64,000 nt of DNA from contig NC_087083.1 of assembly GCF_026151205.1 (NCBI RefSeq), positions 8,923,460 to 8,987,459 on the forward strand. Direction: 5' to 3'. Positions 10,796-47,400 of this stretch are shown in pieces; positions within the stretch are counted from its first letter, which is position 1, and every line of letters begins with the position of its first letter. The DNA is from Bolinopsis microptera (Eukaryota; Ctenophora; Tentaculata; Lobata; Bolinopsidae). A model generated the notes under the pieces. The model was not told where the DNA came from. It made no database searches and worked only from the letters and a program-made list of their open reading frames with translations. The translations under genes were made by a program, and so were the position numbers.

Positions 10796-13700
10796 ACAAT
10801 CTTCCGCAATGACCGCACGAGAAAGACTCATCCTCAAGATCCTAATAACCCTAAAAAGTTTAGGGAAAATGGAGGTGGTGTTCTTTTGGCTGTTCGGTCT
10901 GATCTCGATGCCACTACAACCCGACTACCAGTTAGCCTAGGTGCAGAAATGCTTGCCGTTAAAATTGCTTTTCCTAACAAAGAGAGTATTGTAATCTGTA
11001 CTTGTTATAGAGTAGGAACTCTTGGGTTACCTAATCATGATGTCATAGTTAGTTATATTCGCAAGCTAGTTTCCAAAAAGAATCCCCCTAAAATCTATGT
11101 TATTGGTGATTTTAATCTCCCCCATACAGACTGGCTATCTTCATCCAGTACCGTACCTATTGAGCAATCCTTCATAGATTCTTTCAGTGATCTTTCTCTC
11201 TCCCAGTTGATCACATCACCCACCCATAAAAGTGGTAATACATTAGACATTCTTCTCAGTAATTATGATAACACAATCGATAACTTGAATGTCTGTGATC
11301 CTCATTCCGTGTGCAAATCTGATCATTTTCCTGTCACTTTTTCAATTAAAAGCTCTTTTTCCCGCAAGAAAACTCCTAAACGTAAAATCTATAATTATAA
11401 GAAAGCAAACTGGGACATGATTAATCGTGAATTATGCTCGTTTAATTGGCAAGTCCTAGAATGCCTAGATCCTGATTCGTCTTGGAAGTTAGTTAAAGAC
11501 TGCATTATGAATTTAGTTGATATACATATATTCCTAAAGTAACTATTAAATCAGAGTTTCAACCCCCGTGGTTCGATAGTGAACTTTTTTCTTCATGCCG
11601 TAAAAAAGATAGACTCAGAGCTAAATTTAAAATTTCTGGTTCTATTTCTGATGAGATAAAGTTTGTTACTAGCCGTAAAGATTTTAAGAGGCTTTCATCA
11701 GCCAAAATAAGAGACAATCTTTTCAATAGTGATGATCCAGCGCTTATAACTAAGAAGTTTTGGTCACATATTAAGTATAAATCTAACTCCTGCCGTATTC
11801 CTAATTGTGTTAGTTATTCTGGACAGCTTCGGTTCAAACCCAAAGCTCAAGCTGAACTTTTCAATTCTTTCTTTTATAACCAGTTTTCGGATCCTTCACT
11901 TTATGACACTGACATCTCCTATGTCAATGATGTTGATTTTGATATTGACTTCGATCATCGGGATGTTCGTAAGCTTCTTTCAAATATTAATTCAAATAAA
12001 GCCCAGGGACCAGATGGCATACACGGTAAAATTCTCAAAAATTGTTCCGTAGGTTTAGCTTACCCTCTAACATGCATTTTTCGTGGATCTTACAACAGCG
12101 GCTACATTCCACAAGAATGGAAACTTGCAAATGTTGTCCCAATATTTAAGAAAGGTAAGAAAAGTGAGGTTGAAAACTATAGACCAATATCCCTTACTTG
12201 TTTAGTCATGAAAGTTTTTGAGCGCATTGTTAAACGTAAACTGCTTTCTTTGACAAGTACCCTTCTTGATCCCAGGCAGCATGGTTTTCTAGAGCACAAG
12301 TCATGCACAACCAATATGGTTGACTTTTGTGATAGCCTGGCATTGTCTCTTAACGAAAACATGATCAATCATTGCATGTTGTGTATTTTGATTTTGCTAA
12401 GGCATTTGATTCTGTAAATCATGATATCCTTCTTCATAAGCTAAAGACCTTATATAACATTGATGGTACACTTCTCAAATTTCTTACCAATTACCTTCAA
12501 GGCCGTTACCAAAGAGTGGTTATTGGTAATGAGATGTCATCTACCCTCTCAGTTAATTCTGGTGTCCCCAGGGCTCTATTCTTGGTCCCTTACTTTTTGT
12601 ATTGTTTATCAATGATATTCCTCTTGGCCTTTCGGATAATACTGATATTGTTTTGTATGCCGATGATACAAAAATCTGGCGTAAAATACATTCATCTTCT
12701 GATAATACTAATTTACAAATGGATATAGACTATCTCTCTGACTGGGCACTAAGAAACAAAATGCGATTCCATCCAGCAAAATGTAAAGTGCTTATTGTTT
12801 CAGGAAAACCATCTTTATCTCCTCCATTCGCATATAATCTTGATGGCTCTCCTCTTGTGTATGTAGAGTTAGAAAAAGATCTTGGAGTCGATGTTACTCC
12901 TAAGCTAAGTTGGAATAGTCAGTGCGACAGAATTTATACTAAGGCCTGCCAACAACTTGGTTTGGTCAGAAGAAATGGCCATATTGTCATTGATCAGAAA
13001 CGTCGCCGGGCGCTTTACCTCTCCCTGGTTCGTAGCCAATTCGAAAATTGTTCCATAATCTGGCGCCCTTGTAATAAATCACTTAGTGATAAATTAGAAA
13101 GTCTCCAAAAGAGAGCTATTAAATGGATTCTGTCTGAAGAGGGCCGCAGTTATCCACCTGAGCAATATGTCAAAAAGTGCAAGCTTGTCGACATTCTCCC
13201 TTTGTCTCAAAAGTTTGACTTGAATGATCTTATTTTTTTCCACAAAGTTCTTAATTATTTAATTCCTGTATCGCTGCCTTACTATCTCTCTTTATATCAG
13301 GGCACTTCTCGACTAAGACGTTGCCACCTCGACAGTCTGTCTATTGTGTCATCAATTTTACCTAAGTTAAGTCAGAATTCACACACCACATGTACCTCAA
13401 ATAGCCCACTGGCAAAATCATTTTTCTACAGAACCCATATACTGTGGAATGGACTCCCTTTACAGGTAAGACAGATTGTGTCTACTAGTCTTTTCAAAGC
13501 TGAGGTCACTAAGCATCTATGGAAATGTTTATTGGATAGTGAAACAACAGTCTAGCCTAGTCTCTTTGCTCCCCATATTATTATTATTTTTGTTTTATTA
13601 ATTTTTTTATCTACCTTCCTATACTTTCAACATCATATCACACTTCACCTGCACACCTTCTCACACATTAATGACCATTTCAGACCTGTATCTAATGTAT

Positions 13701-14109: not shown

Positions 14110-15190
14110 TATATAATATTCCATGATGGGCCGTCTAATCAGGCCAGCATACGTCAGAAGACCAGAGAAATTCAGTTAGCTTTGTTTTGAAAATAGAAAT
14201 TTTCTCAGTCTGTCTAACATAGGCTGGCAGTGCATTCCACAGAAGCATTGTTCTATAAAAGAAGCTGTTTCTGAAACTATCGCAGTTTGGTACAATAGAG
14301 CAGGTATATGTGCTGGTGTCAAGTCCTTCAATGACTGATGCCGTGCTCCTTGTGTACCTCATTGTTCCAGCTTCAACAACAGTAATATATTCAGGTAGAG
14401 ATATACTTACCAAATCATTTACTATTTTATAGAAGAGCGTAATTGAATTATGGATGAACTTAGATCTAATGGGTAGAATTTTAAGCTCCTTCTGCTTCTC
14501 ATAGAATACAATATCACTATAATGATCAAACTGTTGTCCATTGATCCATTTGATCGCTCTTTTCTGGATTGCCTCAAACTTCGACATGTGTGTCGATCGC
14601 TGAGGACACCATATAACTGAGCAATGTTCAAAGATTGATCTTACAATGGTAAGGTAGAAAGCCCTCTTTTGGCGTTTATCCATGGTAAAATGACAGGTTC
14701 TCTTTAAGAGCCCAAGCTTCGAGCTTGCTTTAGATATCAATTGATCACAATGTGCACCCCACAGAAACCTGTTGTTCATTATTACACCAAGATCTGTATG
14801 GGATGCCACATAATCAAATATGACTTCATTAAGATTATACCAATAAATATTAAAAGGAAGATTGTCTAATACATTTCTTTGCAGAGTTACAGATAACACC
14901 TTACACTTTGAAGGGGGAAAAGTCATTTTGTTATCGATTGACCAGGCAAACAACCTGTCTATATCTCCTTGGAGAATATAGTGGTCTTCAAAGCATTCGA
15001 TGACCCTCCAAATTTTGGTGTCATCTGCATACAATGCTACATTTGTATCCTCCGAAACACACGAGAACATGTCGTTGATGAATAGAACAAACAGAAGTGG
15101 TCCCAGAATAGATCCCTGGGGCACTCCTGATTGCACGGGAAGCATGCTTGAGACAGCTCCGCCTACAACAACCTGCTGTCGTCTGTTTTG
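14110..15190 (-). mobile_element. Second LINE fragment, reverse transcriptase C-terminal half
   Basis: On the minus strand a 336-codon frame (15145-14135) begins at SGVPQGSILGPLLFVLFIND, followed by ALYADDTKIW and a C-terminal region matching the LINE at 12602-13555 in layout (QKRAIKW near the middle, SFFYRT...LWNALP near the end). It is clearly related to that LINE but diverged, and it is cut off at about 15190, so it is a separate 5'-truncated insertion in the opposite direction. Unlike the first copy, its remaining frame is intact. Confidence 0.85.
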
Positions 15191-16914: not shown

Positions 16915-17813
16915 TTAAGGACCATTATCAAAAGTTTTATTTTCAAATAAAAGTGGCATACCAAAAGGATCACATGAATTAATACCATATGGTTTCAAAG
17001 TTCTGAGTTTTTGTATAAGTAGATGTTCGTTAACTTCTAAATTACTAGGACTAGAATTCTTTAGGATAAAAACATTATAAGAAGCATCAAAATCAGGTCT
17101 ATTGGAAAGGTTATGTGAGTCTATTAGGTGAGCTGCTAAACTGTAAGTGTCACTATCATCAGATAAAAAATCATCACTATGTTTTAAGGAAGGGTCTTTC
17201 AATAATTTATAATAGTTAGCTCTATGTTCGGTTACTCTTTCATGCAAAGTCCTAATGGTACGTCCAACATAGCAGAAAGGAGATGGACATAATTTACAAA
17301 TGAATATATAGACTATGTTGTAGCTAGAACAGGTCCCTGGAGCTTGTCTTATCTTGACTCCATTTACTGGGCCGCGCTCAGCCTGTCATTCCGCCAAATC
17401 TTTTATGTTAATGAACATAATAGCCTGGGGTCCTCAGGTAAGACTCCATTAATACAATAACACTTTTCACTTCCTATCATTGCACAACACTTACAATTTC
17501 TTTGATGGCAAGGTTCTGTTTTTGTTACAGTGTTATCCTCTGCGTGCAATTGTGGGTTGAGGAGTCTTCTCCGCAAAGATGCGCCTGATCTTTTAACATA
17601 ATTGAATAGTCTTTTGCCGGTGTTTCTATCCTGGTTGGAGGTCTCCGTTGTACTTGTCGTGTCGGTGTTAGAGGTAGACGACAAACTCGGAGAAGTCTCT
17701 ATGGTGGACTCAAACTTTTCAATTACGTCTATCAGTGCAGCGTCACCTCCGAAGGTGGAGATAACACGTATTGTGTTATCAGGGGACACAGGGAGCAATA
17801 TAGAACTGTTCGA
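16915..17813 (-). pseudogene. Penelope-like element, linker and GIY-YIG endonuclease part
   Basis: Minus strand. The stretch 17813-17442 gives VRVISTFGGD-type sequence expected just after a Penelope reverse transcriptase thumb, then a Ser/Thr-rich linker and a Cys motif (CHQRNCKCC). A 78-bp MITE interrupts at 17441-17364. Beyond it a GIY-YIG-like domain follows: IVYIFICKLC, FCYVGRT, LHERVTEHR, ending at a stop at 16915. In Penelope-like elements the GIY-YIG nuclease nicks DNA for target-primed integration. The reverse transcriptase half of the same copy is at 27203-27722, beyond the inserted LTR element. Confidence 0.85.
17364..17441 (+). mobile_element. 78-bp hAT-like MITE, copy 1
   Basis: Ends TTACTGGG...CAGGTAA with perfect 8-bp target duplications GACTCCAT (17356-17363 and 17442-17449). 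It disrupts the Penelope-like frame. Relatives: 31472-31560, 50542-50638, 60221-60303. Confidence 0.85.
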
Positions 17814-18325
17814 CGTGTTGGCCTCTCGGACCAACAAGACTCTTTAATTATAGGTGGTTCTTTGCTAAAGTTCCGTTCATTTGGCTGAATTTGTCGAATC
17901 CATTTCTCTTGAGAACTCAAAGTTTTAGTATACCTTCAAGTCAAATTTATTTTACGGATTGAAACAGTTAATTGAATTAACCCGTAAAACTCAGCTACAG
18001 TGACTTTGGTCATTAGTCCAGTGAAACTTTCAAAATATAAAACACCGATAACGGGTCTACTCAAATGATCCAGGGTGTTGGTCATTAGTCCGGAAAAACT
18101 TTCAAAATATACGGACCTTCAAATGAGCTAGGGTACATAGTTCCGTGTTGATTAGTTTCAATTGAGCATTAACGAGGCCACGCATCGGCGATCTAGAAGC
18201 CGTGTTTCGATGCGTCCTAAGGGGAACAACACTGCCCGACTATATCTGAATTTTAGTTGCGATAGCAACAAGTTACAATTCGACGTAGCTCTCTAATAAG
18301 TTACAAGTTCAATTCAAATCGGAAA

Positions 18326-18333
18326 TATAAAAA
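18326..18333 (+). promoter_or_regulatory. TATA box in the LTR
   Basis: TATAAAAA about 190 bp before the LTR end, a usual U3/R position. The 3' LTR has the same box at 27008-27015. Confidence 0.5.
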
Positions 18334-18493
18334 GACTCTCAATATATGAACCTTATCTCCGAAGGTATCTATTTAATGAATTAATGGAAGTATTATTATA
18401 TTTGAAGGCTTATTATACGACTCTATCAATTGTGTTCAAGTAACCATAAATTGAGACTGATTAAAAGCTCTAAAATCTAAAATATAAAATATA

Positions 18494-18499
18494 AATAAA
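18494..18499 (+). terminator. Polyadenylation signal in the LTR
   Basis: AATAAA close to the LTR end; in the 3' LTR it is at 27176-27181, where it would define the transcript 3' end. Confidence 0.45.
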
Positions 18500-18521
18500 C
18501 CACAACGGCAGTAGCCAAAAC

Positions 18522-18532
18522 TGGTGCCCTCC
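18522..18532 (+). other. Primer binding site candidate
   Basis: TGGTGCCCTCC begins one base after the 5' LTR, as expected for pairing with the CCA-ended acceptor of a tRNA. I cannot name the tRNA. Confidence 0.55.
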
Positions 18533-18616
18533 TGGTTCGAATTGACGATCTCTTCATATCAAGCTTCAATTACTGAAACATCAAACTTCAATCATTGAAA
18601 CATCAAGTTCAATAAA

Positions 18617-18898
18617 ATGGCTGAACTGGACAATGCAAAGAAGGAAATAGACAATTTGAAAAAGCAGCTACATGAAATAAATGATAAAAATGAGGATCTG
18701 AAGACATATGCCGACAAACTTAAAAATACAGTCAAAGACACTGCAAAGAAGAACGAAGATTTGAAGAAATATGCAGACGATTTATCGGACCGAAATAATA
18801 ATATGCTCGAGACTAATCAGAAGCTAGATAATGAATATAGAAGAATGCAACATGAATTGGACAAACGAACTCAGCTTAAAGAACAGGAAATGGATTAG
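18617..18898 (+). CDS. Coiled-coil protein, 93 aa, first frame of the LTR element
   Basis: ATG at 18617, stop TAG at 18896-18898. The whole product is a charged heptad-rich helix with an internal duplication (KNEDLKTYAD... then KNEDLKKYAD...). It sits where gag would be, but it has no zinc knuckle and no capsid feature I can see. The frame stays open after the single TAG all the way into the glycoprotein frame (18899-20500), so it could be made alone or, by readthrough, as the N-terminus of a ~627-residue product. Role unknown; oligomerisation is the obvious inference. Confidence 0.65.
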   Translation: MAELDNAKKEIDNLKKQLHEINDKNEDLKTYADKLKNTVKDTAKKNEDLKKYADDLSDRNNNMLETNQKLDNEYRRMQHELDKRTQLKEQEMD

Positions 18899-19066
18899 CC
18901 GAATCTGAAATTTCGGCTACTACTCTGCTCTGAAGAATATTGGGGAAAGCTATACAAACTATCAGAAAATTTAAAATGTAAAAATAAAAATTACGTCAAA
19001 TGGAATATTTCCATCTCGAAACGTAACATCGCGGAATACGAATCATCAGCCAATGCTCTGGTAATA

Positions 19067-20500
19067 ATGTCTCGAACCTGTGAATCATATATGAATTTTG
19101 TGGGAGAAGAAACAATCACGGGTCAAAGTAAAAGAGTAATCACCGTAAACCCAGAAAGGGCTAAATATTTGATTGAAAATCGAAAATGTATTAACGAAAA
19201 AGGCGAGTATCAGACGAAATTGGTTAATAATTTTAAATGTGACTTCAAGTGGCTGGAACACAGATCTAAGACTACGACATCTTGTTATTTCTCGGATGGA
19301 GTAGTAATAGCGAATCATGAGGATACATTTACGTCCTCTTTGTCAAATATGGAGGGTTGCGACTATAGTTCAGGGTACTGTCTAACGCATAACGGAAAAC
19401 ACGTCACTTGGAACGTGATTGAAAATGTAAAAAGGGCTTATTTGCCTGTGGGGCAGTTCAATGCAACACAAATAGAAAATAAGCTACTCGTACCCGAGTT
19501 GAGCATGTCATTTAATCTGCCGGAGAAAAATCCGGGTAACACTTGGATCGATAGGGATTTCCAAATAAAGGGAAGCCCAGCCCCGTATCAATTTAATCTT
19601 GAAAATGTAAATTCGAATAATGAAAATGCGATCGAAGCAATAAGAGAGGAACTCGTCAATAAATTTAATTATCTTTTGGAATTAATTAAAAGTCCGTTGG
19701 CGCAAACGGAGTATTTGTGTAACGTGTACAACGACATATATGGGACTGAGAGAATCCTAGCGAAAATCGATCCAACTGATTACGTACAATGGAAGTTAAA
19801 TAGGACGGATGTAAAGGCTAAATTGGTCGGAAAATTGTTAATGATTTATCCTTGTCTGCAAATTCAACATTATCGATTCATAAACGACACCAACAGGTGT
19901 TATAACGGGTTTAAAATAGAATATAATCTGCCGGAAAATGATGAATATATTGAGGGCTATGTAGATCCTAAGTATAACATGATAATGCCTACCGCAATAG
20001 AGATAGATTGCCACAACTCTACGACCCAATATATGATGGTGAATAATACGATTCTCGCTCAAAGTGCTCATGGGTTACACGAAATGAGGGTAAACCTTTC
20101 AAAGGTAGAAAGTATAGACAGAGTGAAACTTACTGGAATACCCATGTCTCAAGATTTTCAAAATTGGATATATAATACGTCTGAATTGAAGCACCATGAT
20201 ATTAGCGATTTAATCCTGAAGGAAATGGAAAATGAAATTAACCATTTGACGATTGATAAAACGGAAAAACGAAATGTAAAATCCAATTGGCGGGAATTAT
20301 TTGGAATATTCGGACAAAGTAAGTTTACGATTATATTTGCTATTATTAGCAACGTACAAAGCATCGCCGTATGGTATCTAATCTGGAGGTACATTATAGT
20401 AGAATTAATTATAAGTAAATGCGTCGATCGCACCAGAGGACGGATCCCAGTTAATGAGGGCCCAATTGACCGGGATGGTCAGGATGATACGGAAGTTTAA
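19067..20500 (+). CDS. Membrane glycoprotein-like protein 1, up to 477 aa from the first in-frame ATG
   Basis: The ectodomain-like part has about ten cysteines, a G-Y-C-x-T-x(4)-K-x-x-x-W-N type motif near residues 104-117, and seven N-x-S/T sequons. A hydrophobic membrane segment is at about residues 420-450, followed by a short basic/acidic tail of about 25 residues. This layout (glycosylated ectodomain, C-terminal anchor) is that of an envelope or attachment glycoprotein. No basic cleavage site and no evident signal peptide: the ATG at 19067 is only the first in-frame ATG, since the frame is open back to 18899. A leader could come by splicing, or by readthrough from the coiled-coil frame. 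I cannot assign the family; the Cys/Trp motif is only reminiscent of viral glycoproteins. Confidence 0.65.
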   Translation: MSRTCESYMNFVGEETITGQSKRVITVNPERAKYLIENRKCINEKGEYQTKLVNNFKCDFKWLEHRSKTTTSCYFSDGVVIANHEDTFTSSLSNMEGCDYSSGYCLTHNGKHVTWNVIENVKRAYLPVGQFNATQIENKLLVPELSMSFNLPEKNPGNTWIDRDFQIKGSPAPYQFNLENVNSNNENAIEAIREELVNKFNYLLELIKSPLAQTEYLCNVYNDIYGTERILAKIDPTDYVQWKLNRTDVKAKLVGKLLMIYPCLQIQHYRFINDTNRCYNGFKIEYNLPENDEYIEGYVDPKYNMIMPTAIEIDCHNSTTQYMMVNNTILAQSAHGLHEMRVNLSKVESIDRVKLTGIPMSQDFQNWIYNTSELKHHDISDLILKEMENEINHLTIDKTEKRNVKSNWRELFGIFGQSKFTIIFAIISNVQSIAVWYLIWRYIIVELIISKCVDRTRGRIPVNEGPIDRDGQDDTEV

Positions 20501-21450
20501 TTCCTAAATTGACACTGTCCTTTATATGTACTGTAGTAAATGTGTATATTTAGATATGCTCCTTAGATATTCCATCAACATAAAGAATTAATTAGCTGGA
20601 ATCTTAATTATGTTAGTAAATAAGGATAAGTAGTAACAAGGCTACTATGTATGATGAACATTATTTGAAGGAACTACTATAAATAAAGTATATATATATA
20701 TGAAGTATGAGTACTAGGACAGTATAACTATATTATGATTGACAATGAAACAATGATAATGAATAACAAGTGCACAATATGATATGTAATAAGAAATAAA
20801 TATGCGCAATATGACAGTATTTGTATGCAATGATATTAAAGTAAATGCACTATGTATGACAAAGATTATGTTATGAAAGATAATAAAGCGCAATCATATA
20901 AAATGAAAGTGCACAAGATAGCTAGATTATGAATGAAGTGTATGCGCAAAGATATGATCAAGATGAGTAACAAGTAATGCACAATATGGCATGATATTTA
21001 AATAAGTGATAAGCAAGCGCTATGAAAATATAAGATTAAAATAATGTGAGATATGAAACGCCATGAAACAAACCATATTTTAAATGCAGGCCGGCCAAAT
21101 GGAATGGGAACTAGATTAAATGACGTCACCCGGAAAATTTTATTTATTTATTTATTTATTTAGTTCTTAATTTATTTATTTATTTGCGTGCACGATTTGT
21201 GCCAAATCTGAGCTTAAATGTGCCAAAAGACTCTTTAGATCCAAGGCAAATTGAACGTGATTGTTGTCTGGAACCAAAATAATTACTTTAGCATGACCTG
21301 TTTTGTATACTTTTCTAATAAAACACAAAAACCAAATTAGGCACGTAGTAATTTAGAATCTTGTATCTTTGTAACTAAAGTTACAGTTATAAAAATATAT
21401 TATAATATGACCGGTTAATGGTGGTTAATCTAAATACTTAAATAGCAAGG
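20501..21450 (+). other. Non-coding spacer within the LTR element
   Basis: 950 bp, AT-rich, with loosely repeated GCRCAATATGAYA-like motifs (about 20770-21000) and a TATT repeat (21140-21185). It separates the two glycoprotein frames, so the second is likely expressed from its own spliced or subgenomic mRNA. Confidence 0.5.
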
Positions 21451-23556
21451 ATGCGGAAGAAAGGATATTATCAACAAGTTATCTTCTTTATCAGTTGCTG
21501 CATAGCACTTTCAAAAGGAATGATTGAAGAAATCAATTACCACCAGGAAAAGACTGGTCTCATCTTACAAGGAATCGGAATCGTCGCACCGGAGATTACC
21601 CCTGTGCTGATATCAACATTTATAAAGATAAGAAATCCAATGAAAAATGTAAATGAATGCGAAAACATATGCAACATTGACGAAAATGTAATTTGGGGAC
21701 TGCTAACCCACGTAAAATGTAACCATGTGCACAACAAAATCGGAGATCGCCAAAATGTAATAAAGGAAATCGAGAATTCGGTGGATAAAGACCTCGAAAA
21801 TGATTCTAGACAAATGGCGGAACGATGTTTCAGAGAATGTATCAAAATACCGAAATGTAAAGCTTTCGGTGTGGAATATAGATCTGACGTCGTGATCTGC
21901 ATTCTGAGAGAAACCATCCCTACGTATCATCAGGATTCTAAAGGTTCAAGCGAATTCGACATGCGATGCATGGTCGAAGATAAGAATAAATTCTGTGGAC
22001 AATATCAGTCCAGAATCAATATTCTGTTTGAAAAATCAAATGAAAATTTTGTCAATGAAACAATGACAAAAATAGAAAAACTTACTGAATTGACGAAAAA
22101 CAGGAAACAGAAAAGATTTGTTCAAGCAGCCCTTGGATTTTTTGCCGGTTCTATTCTTACTGGAGTGTTCAGTCTCTATGAACAATCGAAAATTTCAACT
22201 CAACTTAACGAGTTCTACGACCAATTTCAGGATTTCCGTAATGAAATGACGGACTATATTGAATCAGCAACGGAATTTCATGAAGGTATGTTGAAAATGT
22301 ACAAAACGTTGGAATTAAATTCTCAGGAGTCATTGGAAGAATTAAGCTGTGAAATGATGAGTATAATTCGGTATAACCTGAAAAGAAATCAGCTTCAAGA
22401 CTGGAAAGAGTATATATACACTCTCTCGAAAGATTTGATAGACGGCCAATTAAAAGGTCCCGTGAGTCCCACAATATTTAATGAAACGAATATACTGGAT
22501 TTGCTGAAACATAAAAGAATGGAGGACGCAATTTATGTTGACAACGTCCCTTTATTCTATCGTCTAGGCAGAATGTGGCTAGCTGATGTAAAGAAAGATG
22601 GAAAATTTTTCAATCTTCATGTGATTATATCGATACCTCAAATAAAAAGTGATGAAATGTACATCCTATATCAAGTGAACCAAGTAGGTTTGGTCAATGG
22701 TACTCAGTGCATGCGTCTGGATATACCGAATCACGTGTATCAAAAAGATGGCGAATTCTACGAATTGGAAAACGAAAATAATTGCGAGGTCCGAAGTGGG
22801 ATAAAATTATGTCTGGGGAATAAAGAAAACGAAGAATCTGCAAAGAAAGCAAGGTGTTTAAACGCCGACCCAAGAATATGTAAAACGAATTTGGAAAAAT
22901 GTCAAATGCGCAATATTCAGACTAGTTCTGGTGTCATGGTCAGAGCAATACATCATTTGAAAGCATCGACGCAAGAAAGTCCTACTGAATACGTGGATAT
23001 TTCAAATGGAAGTACGGTGAAATTTCTCAACTACGATAAATATTATCAAATAGTTGCCGACAACTACATCATTAGATCAATTAAAGAGCCAATGTTTACG
23101 AAAGAACTAGAGTTGACGAACCCCGAAAAATGGGACGAATATTTGATATCTGAAAATGAATTGCTGAAAAGAACGAATCTAAGTCAGCTCAGTGCTCATG
23201 TAGTTCAACAAAAAGAAATTGTTAAACATATCAAATCTGAAAGAATCGGACTAAATCTGACGAAGGATCTAACTCTTGTGAATTTTATAGGAATTTTAAC
23301 AGTAATGATTAGCATTATAGTGGGAATCTTCCTTCTATACAGCTATTGGAAAAAACGGTTCAGGACAAGGAAAGTAGAAAAGGACATAGAATTAGAAGAA
23401 CAAAATAAAGACGAACTTTTAGAAAGCGGAAAAGATGAAGAATCTGGAGTAGATGAAACTAATTTCAGTGGTGAATATAGCGAAGGACTGCGACAAAGAG
23501 CGCCTAGTACAACTAAGGTGTATTCAGTGGACGATGTGAAAAACAGAGTCTTATGA
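21451..23556 (+). CDS. Class I fusion-type envelope glycoprotein, 701 aa
   Basis: ATG at 21451, signal peptide within residues 1-22. A Cys-rich PAN/apple-like stretch lies at about residues 126-152 (C126, C131, C137, C152 spacing). A basic site KQKR ends at Arg222 and is followed directly by a hydrophobic, Gly/Ala/Phe-rich segment (about 223-243) and a helical heptad region, the arrangement of a proteolytically primed fusion peptide. Further Cys residues fill the membrane-proximal ectodomain. A single transmembrane segment at about 609-632 leads into a basic stop-transfer and an acidic tail of about 65 residues. The layout recalls errantivirus Env/baculovirus F proteins, but I cannot show homology. 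The stop is TGA followed by CTAG, and the frame continues into the F-box protein, suggesting readthrough. All parts are intact. Confidence 0.75.
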   Translation: MRKKGYYQQVIFFISCCIALSKGMIEEINYHQEKTGLILQGIGIVAPEITPVLISTFIKIRNPMKNVNECENICNIDENVIWGLLTHVKCNHVHNKIGDRQNVIKEIENSVDKDLENDSRQMAERCFRECIKIPKCKAFGVEYRSDVVICILRETIPTYHQDSKGSSEFDMRCMVEDKNKFCGQYQSRINILFEKSNENFVNETMTKIEKLTELTKNRKQKRFVQAALGFFAGSILTGVFSLYEQSKISTQLNEFYDQFQDFRNEMTDYIESATEFHEGMLKMYKTLELNSQESLEELSCEMMSIIRYNLKRNQLQDWKEYIYTLSKDLIDGQLKGPVSPTIFNETNILDLLKHKRMEDAIYVDNVPLFYRLGRMWLADVKKDGKFFNLHVIISIPQIKSDEMYILYQVNQVGLVNGTQCMRLDIPNHVYQKDGEFYELENENNCEVRSGIKLCLGNKENEESAKKARCLNADPRICKTNLEKCQMRNIQTSSGVMVRAIHHLKASTQESPTEYVDISNGSTVKFLNYDKYYQIVADNYIIRSIKEPMFTKELELTNPEKWDEYLISENELLKRTNLSQLSAHVVQQKEIVKHIKSERIGLNLTKDLTLVNFIGILTVMISIIVGIFLLYSYWKKRFRTRKVEKDIELEEQNKDELLESGKDEESGVDETNFSGEYSEGLRQRAPSTTKVYSVDDVKNRVL

Positions 23557-23684
23557 CTAGACGAAGTAGAAGAATCAAATTTAAACTTGAACTGGAACCT
23601 AAATTGCGAAAATATAAATTGTGGAAAGGTGTCAGAAAAAGAGGTAAAGAAAGCTGTAAATTTACATTACGAAAATGTAAATGA
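23553..23684 (+). CDS. Small, very basic 43-aa frame overlapping the envelope stop
   Basis: The ATG overlaps the envelope stop as ATGA (23553-23556). The frame runs 43 codons with about 20 Lys/Arg, in a different frame from the following F-box region, and ends within the AAATGTAAATGA motif. It could be reached by termination-reinitiation, or it could be chance. The competing reading, readthrough of the TGA, fits the downstream F-box frame better. Confidence 0.25.
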   Translation: MTRRSRRIKFKLELEPKLRKYKLWKGVRKRGKESCKFTLRKCK

Positions 23685-24504
23685 TAGTGTTCAAGATGTC
23701 AGCGACTGGGAAAGTGAATCAAAGAATACAATAGACTCAAATAGTGCTTCGGATATACACGAGGAACTGGAGGAATTGAACATCGAGCATGACGCTTCTA
23801 ACGATGATAATGTGGAACAACTACACAAAGAAGAGACGAAACGAGAAACAGAAATACCAATAGAAATATGGGTGATGATATTTAATTACCTCACCATCAA
23901 GCAATTACTGAAAGTACGAGAATTAAATAAACGATTCAGTAGTTTGGTGAAGGATTACTTGCGGAACCCTACCAATGTAATAATGGAAAATTTTAAATTT
24001 TATAGTTACGAAACGTTCTATTTAACGGAAATACTTATAGAAGATCAAATGTGTTGGACGAATATGAAAACTAAAATTGGAAAGTTTGCCATGAAATACA
24101 TGATCATGAAAGGGGTGTACTGCAGCGCCATCAATAAAGTGGAAAAACCATACTTGAGGTTTTTAAGAACACGGTGTCTACCATTGTATACTTTCAAGGA
24201 CCGGCTAAGAAGCTTCACTCCTAAAGCGTCTGACGACGAAGTGATCATAAGATGGAAGGAATATAAGAAGAATTCTTGGGCGGATATTTCCCCATTGGAA
24301 AAATCATGCATTAAAATGGAATGCAAGTTCCAAACTTTCTTAACGAAACTATATATGAATAAATATGGTACGTCTCTACCGATAACTACGAATCGGGAAA
24401 AGATCCAAAGAATAGGCAAAATGCTGAAAACCGAAGAGAATAAAAACTTCAATCTTCTTCAAGCTATAAAATATAGACCCCCGATTGAAGTTCTAATAGG
24501 GTAA
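23557..24504 (+). CDS. F-box protein 1, in frame with the envelope across one stop codon
   Basis: Open from the codon after the envelope TGA to a stop at 24504. No ATG precedes the F-box (the earliest non-ATG candidate is TTG at 23587), so it probably lacks independent initiation by AUG. An acidic linker of about 100 residues leads into an F-box (IPIEIWVMIFNYLTIKQLLK, then VRELNKRFSSLV), followed by a ~190-residue C-terminal domain shared with F-box protein 2 (W-x-K-x-K-x-x-S-W and EKSCIKMECKF-type motifs). F-box proteins bind Skp1 and bring targets to SCF ubiquitin ligases. If translated by readthrough, the F-box would hang on the cytoplasmic tail of the fusion glycoprotein. The C-terminal domain is unrecognised. 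Confidence 0.7.
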   Translation, partial: LDEVEESNLNLNWNLNCENINCGKVSEKEVKKAVNLHYENVNDSVQDVSDWESESKNTIDSNSASDIHEELEELNIEHDASNDDNVEQLHKEETKRETEIPIEIWVMIFNYLTIKQLLKVRELNKRFSSLVKDYLRNPTNVIMENFKFYSYETFYLTEILIEDQMCWTNMKTKIGKFAMKYMIMKGVYCSAINKVEKPYLRFLRTRCLPLYTFKDRLRSFTPKASDDEVIIRWKEYKKNSWADISPLEKSCIKMECKFQTFLTKLYMNKYGTSLPITTNREKIQRIGKMLKTEENKNFNLLQAIKYRPPIEVLIG

Positions 24505-24675
24505 TCAAACCGTAAAAAGGAAAAATGAAAAATGTAAAATGTAAATCAAACGTAATATGTCAAACGTAATATCACAACTCACCAACGGGTTCAAAATTAT
24601 AGAAACAGGCTCTTTCGTCATTTCCATTATCACTTTAATTAAAGTTTTCTAACCACATATTGATCAGCAAAGCAA

Positions 24676-25356
24676 ATGGAAAATACATCAGAAGAGATAC
24701 CTTCAAAAACAGAAGAAATTCAAAGTCTATCCATTAAAGAAGTCGAATCAGTTTCCAACTGTAATCTACCTATTGAACTATGGCATATTATTTTGACAAG
24801 GCTGAATCTACGTGATTTACTCAAAGCCAGGTTAATTTGCAAAAGGATGGGGAAAATCGTCTCACAATATTTGCGAGACACAACAAGTGGATATCCAGAT
24901 CTCTTCAGCTTCTATAATTATGAAACATATTATCTCTTTGACATTCTAATGGAGAACGAGATGTATTGGACCAGGATACAAACGAATATTGGAAAATTCG
25001 CGATAAAACTCCTAACCATGAGAGGAGCGTATAATGCAGCAGTATTAGGACAAAAGAAATGTTATGCTCGTTTTGTCAGAACTAGATGTCTAACATTTGA
25101 AAAATACAAGTCATTATTCCCAAATGAATCGGACTGGGTTATCCTAGAACGTTGGGGAAAGTATAAACACGAGTCATGGACGAAATTGTCAAGAATCGAA
25201 AAATCAATTATTAAGATGGAATGCAAATTCGATTATTATTTAAAGTACCAATACTGTAAAGCTTATGGAACCTGGTTGTCTATTACAATGACAGAAGAGA
25301 AAATAAAAGAAATCAGTAAAATGATGAAATACGAAGATAAGCAATACGGTAAATGA
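24676..25356 (+). CDS. F-box protein 2, 226 aa
   Basis: Own ATG at 24676, about 170 bp after F-box protein 1. The F-box is at about residues 32-75 (LPIELWHIILTRLNLRDLLK, then ARLICKRMGKIV). The remainder is clearly a paralogue of the C-terminal domain of F-box protein 1 (shared FYNYETYYLFDIL-type, NIGKFA, RTRC, KYK-ESW and IEKS-IKMECKF motifs). This indicates tandem duplication inside the element, with one copy fused in frame behind the envelope and one free. Expected partner: Skp1/cullin machinery of the host. The target is unknown; viral F-box proteins commonly redirect host protein turnover, which is only an analogy here. Confidence 0.75.
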   Translation: MENTSEEIPSKTEEIQSLSIKEVESVSNCNLPIELWHIILTRLNLRDLLKARLICKRMGKIVSQYLRDTTSGYPDLFSFYNYETYYLFDILMENEMYWTRIQTNIGKFAIKLLTMRGAYNAAVLGQKKCYARFVRTRCLTFEKYKSLFPNESDWVILERWGKYKHESWTKLSRIEKSIIKMECKFDYYLKYQYCKAYGTWLSITMTEEKIKEISKMMKYEDKQYGK

Positions 25357-26483
25357 GTTCATCGCATAACTATGCGTGAATCTGCATTTAGATAAAGAAT
25401 GATGAAAAATGTAAATATTGAAAAATTTGAAACTTAAAATATAAAACTGAAAACGGGCAGGTTTAAAGATGAGGAAGTTAGATAAGTAAAGGATCGAACT
25501 CAGCCCAACTGAGATCCTAAATAATAAATATATGTATACAGTTTAAATTGTGAAAGTTATTATAAGACTTCAATAAGTTAAACATTTATTAAGTTAAGTA
25601 AGAAATTAATTATAAATAAGTAAGAATAAGTTAAAAGGCAAATAAGTTAAATATCCGATAAATTGAAAGTAGTTTGTCAAAGGACTATTAATTTAGTACC
25701 ATTTCAGAGCCTTTTAAGTTTATTGAAGTCTACTGACCAAAATAACCCATCCAGGGGTTATGATCAAGTTATTTCATAGGTTCTTAAATAGTTCTTGAAT
25801 AGAAAATTACAAGCTAGTAGATCTTCTCGTTTAGCCAATCTATTGAGATTCTGGATCGCAACCGTATCCCCTCTCTGCACAGGAACATTTCCTACGAAGA
25901 CCGTAGACGCATCGTTATCGGGACGTAACCCGAATCTGTTTCGTATCGGGACGTAACCCCCGTTGAGAAGAAGAAGAAAGAAGAAAGAAGAGGGAATGGA
26001 AAGAATTATAATTGTAGCAATTCGTTACCGGGACGTAACCCGACTTTAAAAGCATCGCAATCAGGGCGTAACCTGACCCCCGTTGTCGTCGAAGAAAGAA
26101 GACCAAAGAAAAGGAAAGGAAAGGAAGGAAAAGAAAAGAAAAGAAAGATACTACTTGTAATAGTGGTGAGCGGCCCTAATGGCGAATTAGGTATTAATAT
26201 ATGTTAACAGTTTTAAGAAATGTTGATCAGCCCTAATGGCTAAATTATAGTAAATATTCTCCTATTTGAAGGAGAGGAAAACTTTGGTGTTAGATGATGA
26301 TTATAATTAGGAGACTTAGGTTCTAAAATTCAGAGTCTTAAAATTTAAGGATGTCAAGGAAAATTTAATAAGAAGAAAAGAAGAAGACGAAGAAGAAGAA
26401 GAAATATTTCATTAGAATAGTACGAGTAAGCCCTCGGTTGGCGAATCGGCTAATCGGTGAAATGATCAAATTAAAAACTCTAT
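25357..26483 (+). promoter_or_regulatory. 3' non-coding region of the LTR element with hairpins and purine tracts
   Basis: No frame. Four stem-loops with RCGTAA loops lie at 25918-25933, 25946-25961 (weak), 26028-26043 and 26061-26076. Three later GCC-loop-GGC stems are near 26172, 26228 and 26427. Long purine runs (GAAGAAGAAGAAAG type) lie at about 25966-25995, 26088-26150 and 26370-26405. The density of small stems suggests an RNA signal such as packaging, export or stability. Confidence 0.5.
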
Positions 26484-26494
26484 GAAAAAGGGGA
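26484..26494 (+). other. Polypurine tract
   Basis: GAAAAAGGGGA immediately before the 3' LTR, the normal place for plus-strand priming. Confidence 0.65.
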
Positions 26495-26495
26495 T

Positions 26496-27202
26496 CGTGT
26501 TGGCCTCTCGGACCAACAAGACTCTTTAATTATAGGTGGTTCTTTGCTAAAGTTCCGTTCATTTGGCTGAATTTGTCGAATCCATTTCTCTTGAGAACTC
26601 AAAGTTTTAGTATACCTTCAAGTCAAATTTATTTTACGGATTGAAACAGTTAATTGAATTAACCCGTAAAACTCAGCTACAGTGACTTTGGTCATTAGTC
26701 CAGTGAAACTTTCAAAATATAAAACACCGATAACGGGTCTACTCAAATGATCCAGGGTGTTGGTCATTAGTCCGGAAAAACTTTCAAAATATACGGACCT
26801 TCAAATGAGCTAGGGTACATAGTTCCGTGTTGATTAGTTTCAATTGAGCATTAACGAGGCCACGCATCGGCGATCTAGAAGCCGTGTTTCGATGCGTCCT
26901 AAGGGGAACAACACTGCCCGACTATATCTGAATTTTAGTTGCGATAGCAACAAGTTACAATTCGACGTAGCTCTCTAATAAGTTACAAGTTCAATTCAAA
27001 TCGGAAATATAAAAAGACTCTCAATATATGAACCTTATCTCCGAAGGTATCTATTTAATGAATTAATGGAAGTATTATTATATTTGAAGGCTTATTATAC
27101 GACTCTATCAATTGTGTTCAAGTAACCATAAATTGAGACTGATTAAAAGCTCTAAAATCTAAAATATAAAATATAAATAAACCACAACGGCAGTAGCCAA
27201 AA
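26496..27202 (+). repeat. 3' long terminal repeat
   Basis: Same length and same sequence by eye as 17814-18520, including TATA box and AATAAA. Confidence 0.9.
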
Positions 27203-27722
27203 GAGGTGTCCCTGCAGGTGGGGAGCCTGCGTTCGAATGTTTTCACCTTCGAAGAGATGTTGTTGATCATCTTTTTCGGATAGTTTGAGTTCGAAAAGCA
27301 CTCTTTCAGCTCGTCGATTCTTAGGGCTAACCTATCATTGTCATTGATGATACGGCGGAGACGGAGACATTGGGAATAGATGATGCTGCTGTAGACATGG
27401 TTAGGGTGGGTGGATCCAAAGTATAGATAAGACCTAGAATCAGTTTCCTTTACATACAGGTCAGTCTGGAGGTTTCCATCGACGTCAAATGTAAATTGTA
27501 TGTCGAGGAAACAAGTAAATCCTCCAGGGTCTTCGATGCTGAACTCATCTATATTAAGACCTACACTATTGAGTCTCGAGTTGACATTAGAGATAAATTC
27601 TGAAAACTGTCTTTTTGTTCCATCAAAAAAACCCGCTCCATCGTCTATGTATCTCTTTACTGTTGACACGTTTTTCATCAAGTGTTCATCAGAATATACT
27701 ACTTTTCTCGTAAAATAATTGT
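27203..27722 (-). pseudogene. Penelope-like element, reverse transcriptase part
   Basis: Minus strand from about 27722: the palm with the catalytic KRYIDDGAGFFDG motif, then FLDIQFTF-type, SYLYFGSTHPNHVY and RLRRIINDND-type thumb sequence typical of Penelope-like reverse transcriptases, running to the LTR boundary at 27203. The N-terminal fingers are missing (5'-truncated). The frame would continue at 17813 if the LTR element were absent, with the junction reading acc-tcg-aac in frame. Confidence 0.85.
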
Positions 27723-28860
27723 TTCAAATACCGTCGACGAGTCCAACTCGGCGCACATTTTGGTAGGTTATAAACCTACAACACCCAGGTAACAGAGGAA
27801 TTCATCAATTAATTAATTAATTGATTAATTATCACCCAAGTAAACTAACTTTTTAAAATTAGGACATATTCACTAGATTCGAGATTTACATGATTCAAAA
27901 CTGAAAACATTGCTTGCGTTTCACATTTGTTGGTGTTTAATGTTTATTGAAGTAAAGTAACTGCATCGCTATTGCGTGAGACTTTTCTCTACTATAATAA
28001 TATATTGGTTTAAGAAAACACAAATTTAATTTAGGTCTTTATTAGTAAATCAAATTTCAGGAACCGTATTATAGCAGCAACAAATATACTTTAAGAAAAG
28101 GACCCGTCATCCACGATTGGAGTCCTACTAACGAAACATCGTGGACCCTTTGATAATTAACTGATCAGTCAGTTAATTATCCAGAACGAAATGTGAATAA
28201 TTTCTCGTTGATAGAACAATTACAGCGGAAAGAATCGTTTAGTTACCGCTAAGGAATTATCTATTCTTAGTGACTGACCGTTATTATATACACGTTGTGT
28301 GATTTGTGTGTTGTCATTGTGTACGTTTTCCAGTTCCTAGTTTAGTCGTTTTGTGAGGTGTTACTACTTGCCCTGTGAAATTGTGAAATTGTGAAATGTG
28401 CATGGCGGGGAGGTGAACCATATTTCTTTTGATAGCACGTGGCATCATGGCATGCGTGATTGACCAATCATAACCCAGAATAGCTGTCACGTGTGAAAAT
28501 TAACATTGTTCACTCACCCGTCTCTATGGTAACTGTTCATGTGCCCAGACTCCAACAGTATTTATATCTTAATTTAACAACAACATATGGTGAACCTAGC
28601 AAGCTAGGAACGAGGGGCCGATCTTTTTTTAGTGTGGACTGTGGCGGTACAGTCACGGTCCTCTCGGTACAGATTCCCAGCATAGTCGGAACGCAACCCC
28701 AGACATATGCATGCACTCGTGTTATTTTTTCAGCTCTAATGAGAGCCACTAACATTCACACCACGATTTGGCGAGTCACGGCTGCCCTTCAGTTTGGAGG
28801 CATGAAAACAACCAGAATCTTAAATTCTGTAGAAGGACGTGCCTCCCTTCTACAACATTC
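27723..28860. other. Repeat block and non-coding sequence
   Basis: 27735-27780 repeats the 45-bp block of 15541-15592. Beyond it I see an AATT tandem (27808-27830) and short unremarkable frames, including a 127-codon one at 28493-28876 with no family signal. Confidence 0.35.
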
Positions 28861-33586: not shown

Positions 33587-41799
<8,213 letters not shown>

Positions 41800-42782: not shown

Positions 42783-43510
42783 AAAGATGGACCTTTACTG
42801 ATAGTTGAAATTCGACATATGACGTCATCTAGCGTCATCTAGCGTCATCTAGCGTGAAATATCGCCAGATGATGATAGATGACGCTAGATGACGCTAGAT
42901 GACGCTAGATGACGCTAGATGACGCCAATTAGCGACATTGTCGCTAAGTGCACGGCACCTTTCGAATGTCGCTATCTAGCGCTATCTAGCGCTATCTAGC
43001 GCTATCTAGCGCTATATGACGCTATATGACGCTATATGACGCTAGATGACGCTAGATGACGCTAGATGACGCTAGATGACGCTAAGCACGCAGCACTGAC
43101 GCCAGGCGACAGATAGCGCTATTTTCATAAAAATTCTAGGGACGACATCTAGCGTCATCTAGCGTCATATGTTGCCGCGACATCTGACGCTATCTGACGC
43201 CATCTAGCGATATCTGACGTCATCTGACGACATCTGTCGCGACGACATCTGACGCAGGCGACATCAAGCGCTGGATAGCGGGATAAGTCAGTTTACGACA
43301 GTTCACGCTATCTAGCGCTATATAGCGCCAGATAGCGCTATATAGCGTCAGATGTCGATGCGACATATAGCGCTAGATAGCGTTAGATAGCGCTAAATAG
43401 CGTTAGATAGCGCTAAATAGCGAAGAATTTTGGGTCGTGACAGTCCAGGCTATTTAGCGCTAGATGTCGCTATCTAGCGCTATATGTCGCTGCGTCAGAT
43501 GTCGTCGCTA
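42783..43510. repeat. TAGCGCTA-rich palindromic element, copy A
   Basis: Begins near GGACCTTTACTGATAGTTGA and consists of short runs of TGACGCTAGA, ATCTAGCGCT and TATATGACGC. The reverse complement of the same element is at 51590-52310, including unique islands (TAGCGACATTGTCGCTAAGTG; ATCGCCAGATGATGATAGAT). Confidence 0.9.
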
Positions 43511-44115: not shown

Positions 44116-44482
44116 AGGAGTTTTTCAGGCATTAAGACTCATCGAAAGTCGTTCAGCAGATTTATTTTTAGTTCAAAACATTCTAATTTGATGTCAAAGA
44201 TGACAGGAATAAAAAATAGTTATGTTGAGATTTTTAAGAAATTTGCATAAAATACTCGCCAGCACTGTTATACGAAATTCGGTAAAAAACCCAAAATCGC
44301 CATATTCAGGTGCCTTAAAAACCATGTTAAAATTGAGTTAGAGATCAGAAATTTTTCAGGGCGTCTAGACGTTGACCAAATCGACTGCAAAAAAAGTTTC
44401 AGGTTTCAGGAGCATCGGGAAATGGGTTTTCTAGAACCCCTGTTTTACGATAGATTGTCGTGATATATACATACATATATAT

Positions 44483-47400
44483 ATAATTCGAACAATTGAA
44501 ACAAATCAAATTGGCGGGCAAACGATCCGTTTCATGATATGTATAAAAACAATACCAATCATCAGTGCTAAATAGAATAATGAATTGTAGCGCTATGACA
44601 TGTTGCTCCTTTATAAAATGATTTTTATCGATCATGAAACATTTTCAAAATTATCAAAATTTACAAAATTTCCAAAAAAACAGTTTATTGTGTCCGTCCC
44701 AATTTTAAAATTGTCTATGAAGTAAGGTAGTAAGATATCTTTGGCTTTTAAAGTTGTACTTGTAAACTGCATTGGCCTTCGTGTAGTGGTAGAGGAAAAT
44801 TCTTTACTGAGTTCCGTGAAGCTGGTAGAATTAGGATCCGTATTTGAGAGTTAATTGTTGATTCTGGTTATCAAACGAGAGTGCTCAACAACGACGAGTC
44901 GAAGGAGCATAATTAATAAATAGTTGTTGTTTGGTTTCCCAAAGAGAGTGCTCGACTGCAGTTAAGCAGGAGCATTATAATTCGAACAATTGAAACAAAT
45001 CAAATTGGCGGGCAAACGATCCGTTTCATGATATGTATAAAAACAATACCAATCATCAGTGCTAAATAGAATAATGAATTGTAGCGCTATGACATGTTGC
45101 TCCTTTATAAAATAATTTTTATCGATCATGAAACATTTTCAAAATTATCAAAATTTACAAAATTTCCAAAAAAACAGTTTATTGTGTCCGTCCCAATTTT
45201 AAAATTGTCTATGAAGTAAGGTAGTAAGATATCTTTGGCTTTTAAAGTTGTACTTGTAAACTGCATTGGCCTTCGTGTAGTGGTAGAGGAAAATTCTTTA
45301 CTGAGTTCCGTGAAGCTGGTAGAATTAGGATCCGTATTTGAGAGTTAATTGTTGATTCTGGTTATCAAACGAGAGTGCTCAACAACGACGAGTCGAAGGA
45401 GCATAACTAATAAATAGTTGTTGTTTGGTTTCCCAAAGAGAGTGCTCGACTGCAGTTAAGCAGGAGCATTATAATTCGAACAATTGAAACAAATCAAATT
45501 GGCGGGCAAACGATCCGTTTCATGATATGTATAAAAACAATACCAATCATCAGTGCTAAATAGAATAATGAATTGTAGCGCTATGACATGTTGCTCCTTT
45601 ATAAAATAATTTTTATCGATCATGAAACATTTTCAAAATTATCAAAATTTACAAAATTTCCAAAAAAACAGTTTATTGTGTCCGTCCCAATTTTAAAATT
45701 GTCTATGAAGTAAGGTAGTAAGATATCTTTGGCTTTTAAAGTTGTACTTGTAAACTGCATTGGCCTTCGTGTAGTGGTAGAGGAAAATTCTTTACTGAGT
45801 TCCGTGAAGCTGGTAGAATTAGGATCCGTATTTGAGAGTTAATTGTTGATTCTGGTTATCAAACGAGAGTGCTCAACAACGACGGAACTCAGTAAAGAAT
45901 TTTCCTCTACCACTACACGAAGGCCAATGCAGTTTACAAGTACAACTTTAAAAGCCAAAGATATCTTACTACCTTACTTCATAGACAATTTTAAAATTGG
46001 GACGGACACAATAAACTGTTTTTTTGGAAATTTTGTAAATTTTGATAATTTTGAAAATGTTTCATGATCGATAAAAATTATTTTATAAAGGAGCAACATG
46101 TCATAGCGCTACAATTCATTATTCTATTTAGCACTGATGATTGGTATTGTTTTTATACATATCATGAAACGGATCGTTTGCCCGCCAATTTGATTTGTTT
46201 CAATTGTTCGAATTATAATGCTCCTGCTTAACTGCAGTCGAGCACTCTCTTTGGGAAACCAAACAACAACTATTTATTAGTTATGCTCCTTCGACTCGTC
46301 GTTGTTGAGCACTCTCGTTTGATAACCAGAATCAACAATTAACTCTCAAATACGGATCCTAATTCTACCAGCTTCACGGAACTCAGTAAAGAATTTTCCT
46401 CTACCACTACACGAAGGCCAATGCAGTTTACAAGTACAACTTTAAAAGCCAAAGATATCTTACTACCTTACTTCATAGACAATTTTAAAATTGGGACGGA
46501 CACAATAAACTGTTTTTTTGGAAATTTTGTAAATTTTGATAATTTTGAAAATGTTTCATGATCGATAAAAATCATTTTATAAAGGAGCAACATGTCATAG
46601 CGCTACAATTCATTATTCTATTTAGCACTGATGATTGGTATTGTTTTTATACATATCATGAAACGGATCGTTTGCCCGCCAATTTGATTTGTTTCAATTG
46701 TTCGAATTATAATGCTCCTGCTTAACTGCAGTCGAGCACTCTCTTTGGGAAACCAAACAACAACTATTTATTAGTTATGCTCCTTCGACTCGTCGTTGTT
46801 GAGCACTCTCGTTTGATAACCAGAATCAACAATTAACTCTCAAATACGGATCCTAATTCTACCAGCTTCACGGAACTCAGTAAAGAATTTTCCTCTACCA
46901 CTACACGAAGGCCAATGCAGTTTACAAGTACAACTTTAAAAGCCAAAGATATCTTACTACCTTACTTCATAGACAATTTTAAAATTGGGACGGACACAAT
47001 AAACTGTTTTTTTGGAAATTTTGTAAATTTTGATAATTTTGAAAATGTTTCATGATCGATAAAAATTATTTTATAAAGGAGCAACATGTCATAGCGCTAC
47101 AATTCATTATTCTATTTAGCACTGATGATTGGTATTGTTTTTATACATATCATGAAACGGATCGTTTGCCCGCCAATTTGATTTGTTTCAATTGTTCGAA
47201 TTATAATGCTCCTGCTTAACTGCAGTCGAGCACTCTCTTTGGGAAACCAAACAACAACTATTTATTAGTTATGCTCCTTCGACTCGTCGTTGTTGAGCAC
47301 TCTCGTTTGATAACCAGAATCAACAATTAACTCTCAAATACGGATCCTAATTCTACCAGCTTCACGGAACTCAGTAAAGAATTTTCCTCTACCACTACAC

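Follow-up and report, generated by a model that had tools for sequence, protein, structure and literature searches.

The window analysed here is a stretch of 64,000 nucleotides from the ctenophore Bolinopsis microptera (NCBI RefSeq assembly GCF_026151205.1, contig NC_087083.1, forward-strand positions 8,923,460 to 8,987,459); all coordinates below are positions within it. At 17816-27202 a minus-strand gene is interrupted by an element that is bounded by identical long terminal repeats (LTRs) and carries five open reading frames (ORFs) on its plus strand. Two of these frames resemble viral membrane-fusion glycoproteins (fusogens) and two contain an F-box. An initial annotation of this DNA had described the locus as an LTR-flanked passenger with two glycoprotein-type and two F-box genes and no polymerase; that the two glycoproteins resemble different fusogen classes is absent from it. 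The element and its immediate setting comprise the following features.

16918..17811, minus strand: interrupted gene, downstream part, with a GIY-YIG-like stretch seen by eye
17812..17815: candidate target-site duplication, left copy, GACG
17816..18520, plus strand: 5' LTR; identical run from 17814, TG start at 17816, terminates CCAAAA
18522..18532, plus strand: primer-binding-site (PBS)-like site, TGGTGCCCTCC, with a TGG start 1 nt past the 5' LTR, read from the sequence
18617..18898, plus strand: ORF1, 93 aa, coiled coil, in gag position, stop TAG
18899..20500, plus strand: ORF2, 533-codon open frame; ATG at 19067 (477 aa); one C-terminal transmembrane (TM) segment
21451..23556, plus strand: ORF3, 701 aa; TM segment at about residues 612-640; 60-aa tail
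23554..23560, plus strand: ORF3 stop, UGA-CUAG, a published readthrough context (PMC4132726)
23557..24504, plus strand: F-box1 frame, 315 codons, in frame with ORF3; F-box at about 23851-23955
24676..25356, plus strand: F-box2, 226 aa, with its own AUG; F-box at 24760-24864
25357..26483, plus strand: 3' non-coding region with three GGGACGTAACC repeats and purine-rich runs
26484..26494, plus strand: polypurine-tract (PPT)-like sequence, GAAAAAGGGGA, directly before the 3' LTR, read from the sequence
26498..27202, plus strand: 3' LTR; identical run from 26496
27203..27206: candidate target-site duplication, right copy, GAGG, matching the left copy at 3/4 positions
27207..27723, minus strand: interrupted gene, upstream part, YIDD-containing

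The matching 707-bp repeats reported earlier are exact: 17814-18520 and 26496-27202 agree at 707 of 707 bases, and the match does not extend leftward. Because the termini are near-inverted (TGTTGG / CCAAAA, the 3' terminus being CCAAAA and not CA), the LTR proper is placed at 17816-18520 and is probably the 705 bp from 17816. LTR divergence has a 95% upper bound of 0.4%, and the element is a very young insertion. By BLAST (E up to 1e-5), the only recurrences of its sequence in the window are the other LTR and, within each LTR, a 34-bp sub-repeat whose units (18006-18039 and 18078-18111) are 91% identical.

Nine options for the element ends and the length of the duplication were compared at the insertion site. 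Excision of the element together with one 4-bp duplicate leaves a 309-codon frame across the empty site; this frame results with boundaries at 17816 (4 bp), 17815 (3 bp) and 17814 (2 bp). The frame is open too (308 codons) for 5 bp from 17814, where the duplicates do not match, and the remaining five options give at most 199 codons across the join. We tentatively take the interrupted gene to be Penelope-like, going by motifs recognized by eye (YIDD and the GIY-YIG-like stretch); it gave no Pfam match above chance. Since a foreign frame is regained on removal of the element, the possibility raised in the initial annotation that the two repeats are an assembly duplication is unlikely.

PBS-like and PPT-like sequences are indeed present beside the LTRs, as had been noted. 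TGGTGCCCTCC may resemble the 3' end of an elongator tRNA-Met; the window itself contains no host tRNA against which the site could be matched. Within the 3' non-coding region, the three GGGACGTAACC repeats occupy 25918-26040 and might have a structural role or act as packaging signals. The plus strand of the interior is rich in A, with an AT skew of 0.189 compared with -0.038 to 0.113 outside the element (78 overlapping eight-kb intervals), as would be expected if the element is one unit coded on a single strand; the LTR lacks this skew (0.051). The LTR element is genuine, in its insertion as in its anatomy. One observation counts against this account of the insertion: the GACG/GAGG duplication differs at 1/4 positions although the LTRs are identical.

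ORF3 is likely a full-length-looking type I glycoprotein of the paramyxovirus-F-like class I. In order, it has a signal-peptide-like start, a Cys-rich N-terminal part, a furin-like RKQKR site, a hydrophobic, glycine-containing stretch like a fusion peptide, heptad repeats and the TM segment. These features, the signal peptide among them, were taken from the sequence, hydropathy and heptad counts. Heptads as good as those of residues 241-300 occurred in 4 of 2000 shuffles, and as good as those of residues 251-310 in 40 of 2000. Eight N-glycosylation sequons are present, one of them within the tail, and the Cys-rich part gave a weak PAN-like match below cut-off (E 0.13-0.15). Residues 388-626 align to positions 253-484 of the 487 in PF00523 (Fusion_gly, paramyxovirus F). 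This match was found in all four C-terminal fragments of ORF3 (29.9, 31.1, 30.9 and 29.1 bits; E about 1e-7). A prefoldin match was set aside as chance or composition. AlphaFold2 run without relatives reached a predicted local distance difference test score (pLDDT) of 33.9 for ORF3.

Several points weigh against this assignment. The PF00523 match is near threshold, with the cut-off of 29.8 passed by three of the four fragments, and it was not returned for the 701-aa and 661-aa ORF3 queries. No paramyxovirus F chain was matched when ORF3 was compared with the PDB. Ahead of the TM segment there is no heptad signal, 1290 of 2000 shuffles being equal.

ORF2 resembles a class III viral fusogen, and thus another fusogen class than ORF3. 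Its 477-aa version matches PF24664 (Monjiviricetes_fusion) at 30.0 bits (E 1.7e-7, cut-off 27), with residues 215-323 aligned to profile positions 335-435 of 653. Overlapping residues match two further profiles below their own cut-offs, namely herpesvirus gB (23.5 bits, E 4.4e-5, cut-off 43) and bornavirus G (BDV_G; 13.5 bits, E 0.025, cut-off 27). Across ORF2 versions the gB profile gave E values of 1.5e-5 to 4.4e-5, again under its cut-off, and phmmer against the PDB returned a single chain, a gammaherpesvirus gB (E 0.027). Shorter fragments scored 26.9 and 27.6 bits with PF24664, against the cut-off of 27; AlphaFold2, again without relatives, gave a pLDDT of 31.9. The initial annotation had proposed a profile search of both glycoproteins and of the F-box C-terminal domain; it yielded PF24664 and, near its threshold, PF00523 for the former and no Pfam family above its cut-off for the latter.

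ORF2 appears to be incomplete. No signal-peptide-like start was found in it, and residue 215 already stands at profile position 335, so that its N-terminus is either missing or supplied from elsewhere; the profile alignment implies that about 65-120 N-terminal positions are absent. Both glycoprotein-type genes of the earlier description resemble viral fusogens, but the 477-aa ORF2 is without a signal peptide. The ORF2 frame has no stop in the 56 codons between the ORF1 stop and its ATG (chance 0.009). Apart from ORF2 itself, eight ATG-led peptides of at least 15 aa start between 18300 and 19067, and none contains a strongly hydrophobic segment; the best 12-residue hydropathy mean among them, 1.02, belongs to a 19-aa peptide inside the LTR. 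Two points speak against reading ORF2 as a truncated class III fusogen. PF24664 was not reported for the 533-codon version, which matched only gB and, weakly, BDV_G. In addition, splicing from an upstream exon could complete ORF2, by analogy with insect env genes, which are spliced according to the available part of one report (PMC12992720). Between the two glycoprotein genes lies a 950-bp AT-rich non-coding spacer (20501-21450) with a TTTA-repeat run at 21139-21185.

Non-autonomous LTR retroelements lack gag-pol by definition. Profiles for gag, protease, reverse transcriptase (RT), RNase H and integrase had no match among the five ORFs or 10 further stop-free pieces, in line with the initial annotation, which had seen no such likeness. 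Counting both strands, the three inter-ORF stretches hold 28 stop-free pieces that reach 34 aa or more, ORF1 being one; the scan left out 17 of these (34-65 aa) and the other frames beneath the ORFs. ORF1, counted earlier among the intact frames, is an open 93-aa frame that amounts to no more than a coiled coil in gag position. Its heptad score was reached by 0 of 2000 shuffles. Its many Pfam coiled-coil matches were set aside as chance or composition, and the absence of a match to any gag family tells against reading it as the start of gag.

The two F-box genes recognized earlier are borne out by PF00646, which scores 25.3 bits for F-box1 and 30.8 bits for F-box2 (cut-off 20.5). The two products also have a C-terminal domain in common, for which no Pfam family exceeds its cut-off, and are 44% identical (96 of 216 aligned residues). 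A Pfam 'Syd' match on F-box1 was set aside as chance or composition. The proportion of synonymous differences between them is saturated (pS 0.82), while that of nonsynonymous differences (pN) reaches only 0.37 overall, with 0.33 for the C-terminal domain alone. Thus F-box1 and F-box2 have long been under purifying selection, which may have acted inside the element or before capture.

The manner in which F-box1 is joined to ORF3 deserves separate attention. The first AUG of the F-box1 frame is at residue 107, within the F-box, the match to which begins at about residue 99. With no AUG before the F-box, F-box1 is not an independent AUG-started gene. All five frames of the initial annotation are open on the plus strand as described, but two fall short of intact genes, ORF2 being N-terminally incomplete and F-box1 having no AUG before its F-box. 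From the ORF3 stop to the F-box there are 98 stop-free codons without an AUG (chance 2.5e-4 under a base-composition model). The stop itself is followed by CTAG, which is expected with a probability of about 0.003 after a given stop and about 0.015 after any of the five. In the available part of the published work, four mammalian genes that are read through efficiently have the UGA-CUAG context, which promotes readthrough in human cells; a rate of 1.5% is reached with UGA-CUA by itself, and this sequence also occurs in some alphaviruses (PMC4132726). Taken together, the arrangement suggests an Env–F-box fusion made through UGA-CUAG readthrough.

Readthrough also has evidence to contend with. 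The codon-use signal over 23557-23850 is weakly coding-like, at 0.088 bit per codon, where one reverse frame reaches 0.073 and a control drawn from the training set 0.129. The window has 8 copies of TGACTAG, counting both strands, and one of them is on the plus strand of the element interior. Among human UGA-CUAG genes, positive coding scores past the stop were found in only 4 of 23, as far as the available part of that report goes (PMC4132726). The RNA past the ORF3 stop is without unusual folding in two of three stretches: a readthrough-stimulating structure directly after the stop was rejected (z 0.15 over 80 nt and -0.06 over 100 nt), and the 140-nt stretch has z -2.67 due to a hairpin about 100 nt downstream.

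The main alternative to readthrough is that F-box1 is expressed by splicing, from a donor in the ORF3 tail or the 5' leader, with no Env–F-box fusion across the stop. This seems to us a plausible route, if not the one we expect, and since it concerns the expression step only, it is compatible with every other rival reading below. A donor-like AAGGTGTAT is present at 23518, but it is one of 24 element sites scoring at least 7 of 9; a plausible acceptor can be seen by eye just upstream of the F-box2 AUG; and insect env genes are routinely spliced, to judge from the part of the source available (PMC12992720). Against splicing, the F-box1 frame is open back to exactly the ORF3 stop and this stop is UGA-CUAG; moreover, a donor within ORF3 could itself yield an Env–F-box fusion.

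The data show the insertion and its anatomy, the profile matches and the open frame that lacks an AUG, whereas the deletion history, mobilisation in trans, readthrough and the role of the F-box products are inferred. With moderate confidence, we propose that this young non-autonomous LTR retroelement arose by internal deletion from a larger retrovirus-like element that bore envelope genes. A coiled-coil ORF, a stop and an N-terminally incomplete glycoprotein stand in the same frame and resemble the scar of a deletion running from gag through pol into the 5' part of env. Such a deletion would have eliminated pol entirely, along with the bulk of gag and the N-terminal portion of the first, class III envelope, leaving as remnants the coiled-coil start of gag (ORF1) and the remainder of the class III gene (ORF2). 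The LTRs, the PBS-like site, the PPT-like tract, a seemingly complete class I envelope (ORF3) and two F-box genes would have been kept, and replication would proceed in trans through the Gag-Pol of intact relatives. Under neutral drift, the four frames (1719 codons) would be without a stop with a probability of 0.08 at 1% and 0.007 at 2%, which points to a young deletion or to maintained frames. A young deletion is sufficient, because the LTRs are identical.

F-box proteins deliver substrates to SKP1-CUL1 ubiquitin ligases. In the proposed derivative, ORF3 would probably be translated alone for the most part, with a minor fraction extended through UGA-CUAG into F-box1. The extended product would be a membrane-anchored envelope with a cytoplasmic tail able to recruit an SKP1-CUL1-F-box (SCF) ubiquitin ligase, while F-box2 would act as a free adaptor in the cytosol. 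The F-box products would likely serve to rid the producing cell of its receptor or of host restriction proteins, or to exclude superinfection.

Foremost among the other origins is a specialised satellite, as put forward in the initial annotation: a stable gag-pol-less lineage, selected for its envelope and F-box genes, that would parasitise or assist a helper and would supply it with Env and ubiquitin-ligase adaptors. We regard this as unlikely. Lesion-free frames (ORF3 of 701 aa, F-box1 of 315 codons, F-box2 of 226 aa and an open ORF2 frame), the rarity with which 2% of neutral drift leaves four frames stop-free (0.007) and the long constraint on both F-box copies speak for it. Yet the LTR identity (upper bound 0.4% divergence) marks a copy so young that its intactness means little, ORF2 appears truncated, a single copy cannot establish a lineage, and the F-box constraint may date from the autonomous parent or from before capture. 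The polymerase-less passenger thus survives as an LTR insertion in which no polymerase was detected and which would depend on others in trans, but no evidence supports a specialised satellite over a deletion derivative. A fuller version, in which two fusogen classes travel with a private F-box pair, programmed readthrough gives an F-box-tailed envelope and the pol-less form is a mobile module providing a helper with cell entry and the degradation of host proteins, is in our view rather doubtful. A similarly slim chance attaches, in the F-box-tailed-envelope reading, to the ubiquitination of receptor-bound or co-clustered membrane proteins of the producer cell.

Alternatively, the event may be unique to this locus: an autonomous provirus inserted here and only then lost gag-pol, leaving a shortened form that is immobile. 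The deletion structure of ORF1 and ORF2 fits such a loss, and published sets hold many defective env-bearing copies, such as mosquito Pao elements with chuvirus glycoproteins in the available part of one account (PMC7642597). We nonetheless think it improbable, as the absence of any LTR difference allows little time for a deletion after insertion and no other lesions were seen. An assembly artefact, whether in the repeats or in the joins of element and flank, might be suspected from the perfect repeat identity and the one mismatch in the 4-bp duplication, but we dismiss it as highly improbable given the restored foreign frame, the correctly placed PBS-like and PPT-like sites and a strand composition confined to the interior.

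Elsewhere in the window, inverted repeats of 349 bp (42788-43136 / 51964-52312), 99.7-100% complementary and 8.8 kb apart, enclose satellite arrays and could be the ends of a large terminal-inverted-repeat element or a palindromic duplication. Within 44482-47761, a 494-bp satellite is present in two arrays placed head to head, with inter-copy matches of 99%, and these make up a long near-perfect palindrome. RT-like ORFs with YADD motifs lie at 12602-13555 (plus strand) and 14135-15145 (minus strand) and look like those of long interspersed nuclear elements (LINEs) by eye. A 732-aa ORF at 35691-37889 (plus strand) has a weak peptidoglycan-binding match (E 8.8e-4, below cut-off), followed by a sequence that looks by eye like a matrix metalloproteinase propeptide; this ORF is probably part of a host gene. 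Rfam gave no match in the window at its gathering threshold.

Relatives were not recovered from the collections scanned. A scan of viral contigs with ORF2, ORF3, F-box1, F-box2 and the LTR 34-mer found none, and a scan of bacterial and archaeal genome contigs with ORF3 and F-box2 found none either; both collections may exclude the genome of the window. One viral locus (L001) matching F-box2 over 21 residues was rejected as chance, since one translated frame of a 300-base stretch there did not resemble an F-box protein. PHROGs and NCBIfam scans gave nothing usable. In an incomplete literature search, from which preprints and most subscription journals were absent, we found no description of an LTR element with an F-box gene, judging by titles and the openings of abstracts, nor of both fusogen classes in one element; such an absence is weak evidence.

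Among described systems, TelKA and TelKA2n of the bdelloid rotifer Adineta vaga come closest in the notion of an envelope kept without a polymerase. They resemble the element here in being LTR elements whose envelope is of class I and akin to paramyxovirus F (pfam00523), the likely assignment of ORF3, and TelKA2n is a non-autonomous family in which C-terminal gag and most of pol are missing and the paramyxovirus-F-like env is kept, as given in the available part of the report (PMC5408684). The initial annotation had held that env genes normally accompany gag-pol; env without pol has a precedent in TelKA2n, on that same partial account (PMC5408684). Likened by architecture alone, TelKA2n would be a direct precedent for env retention after pol loss. 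The TelKA envelope is about 600 aa, compared with 701 aa for ORF3; a second, class III glycoprotein is not named in the part available, and the term 'F-box' occurs 0 times in the text (PMC5408684).

Anakin, a mosquito Pao element, is likewise an LTR element with a captured glycoprotein, in this case from a chuvirus, and has many defective copies. From the available part of its description, it has one glycoprotein, and complete copies contain BEL/Pao-type gag-pol; that part mentions no F-box gene, the term not having been specifically searched for (PMC7642597). In errantiviruses and insect endogenous retroviruses (ERVs), as covered by the available part of the source, the third ORF encodes a furin-cleaved class I (F-type) Env made from spliced RNA; unlike here, that Env is related to baculovirus F and gag-pol is present, and the term 'F-box' occurs 0 times (PMC12992720). 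Troyka elements, in what is available of their description, are bounded by CG...CG and flanked by 3-bp duplications; CG also opens the identical run here, but the element terminates in CCAAAA (PMC12440569). That description, as far as available, mentions no envelope gene, and 'F-box' occurs in it 0 times (PMC12440569). Membership in Troyka was ruled out by the CCAAAA end, and both 3-bp options, GAC/GAG and CGA/GAG, are mismatched.

As regards the ORF3 stop, the UGA-CUAG readthrough genes have the same stop and the same four next bases, with a frame open downstream; according to the available part of that work, readthrough was shown experimentally there, whereas here it is suggested by sequence alone (PMC4132726). 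Already known, then, are env capture by LTR elements, class I and class III captures separately, and env-bearing non-autonomous elements. Envelope capture is a route from retrotransposon to infectious retrovirus. With fusogens of two unrelated classes, and ubiquitin-ligase adaptors linked to one of them, such an element would parallel, on the invertebrate-type side, the complex retroviruses and their accessory genes, and would make interference with host proteins or among elements directly testable. Should the pol-less form prove to represent a lineage, the precedent of TelKA2n would widen to a satellite that contributes functions as well as borrowing them.

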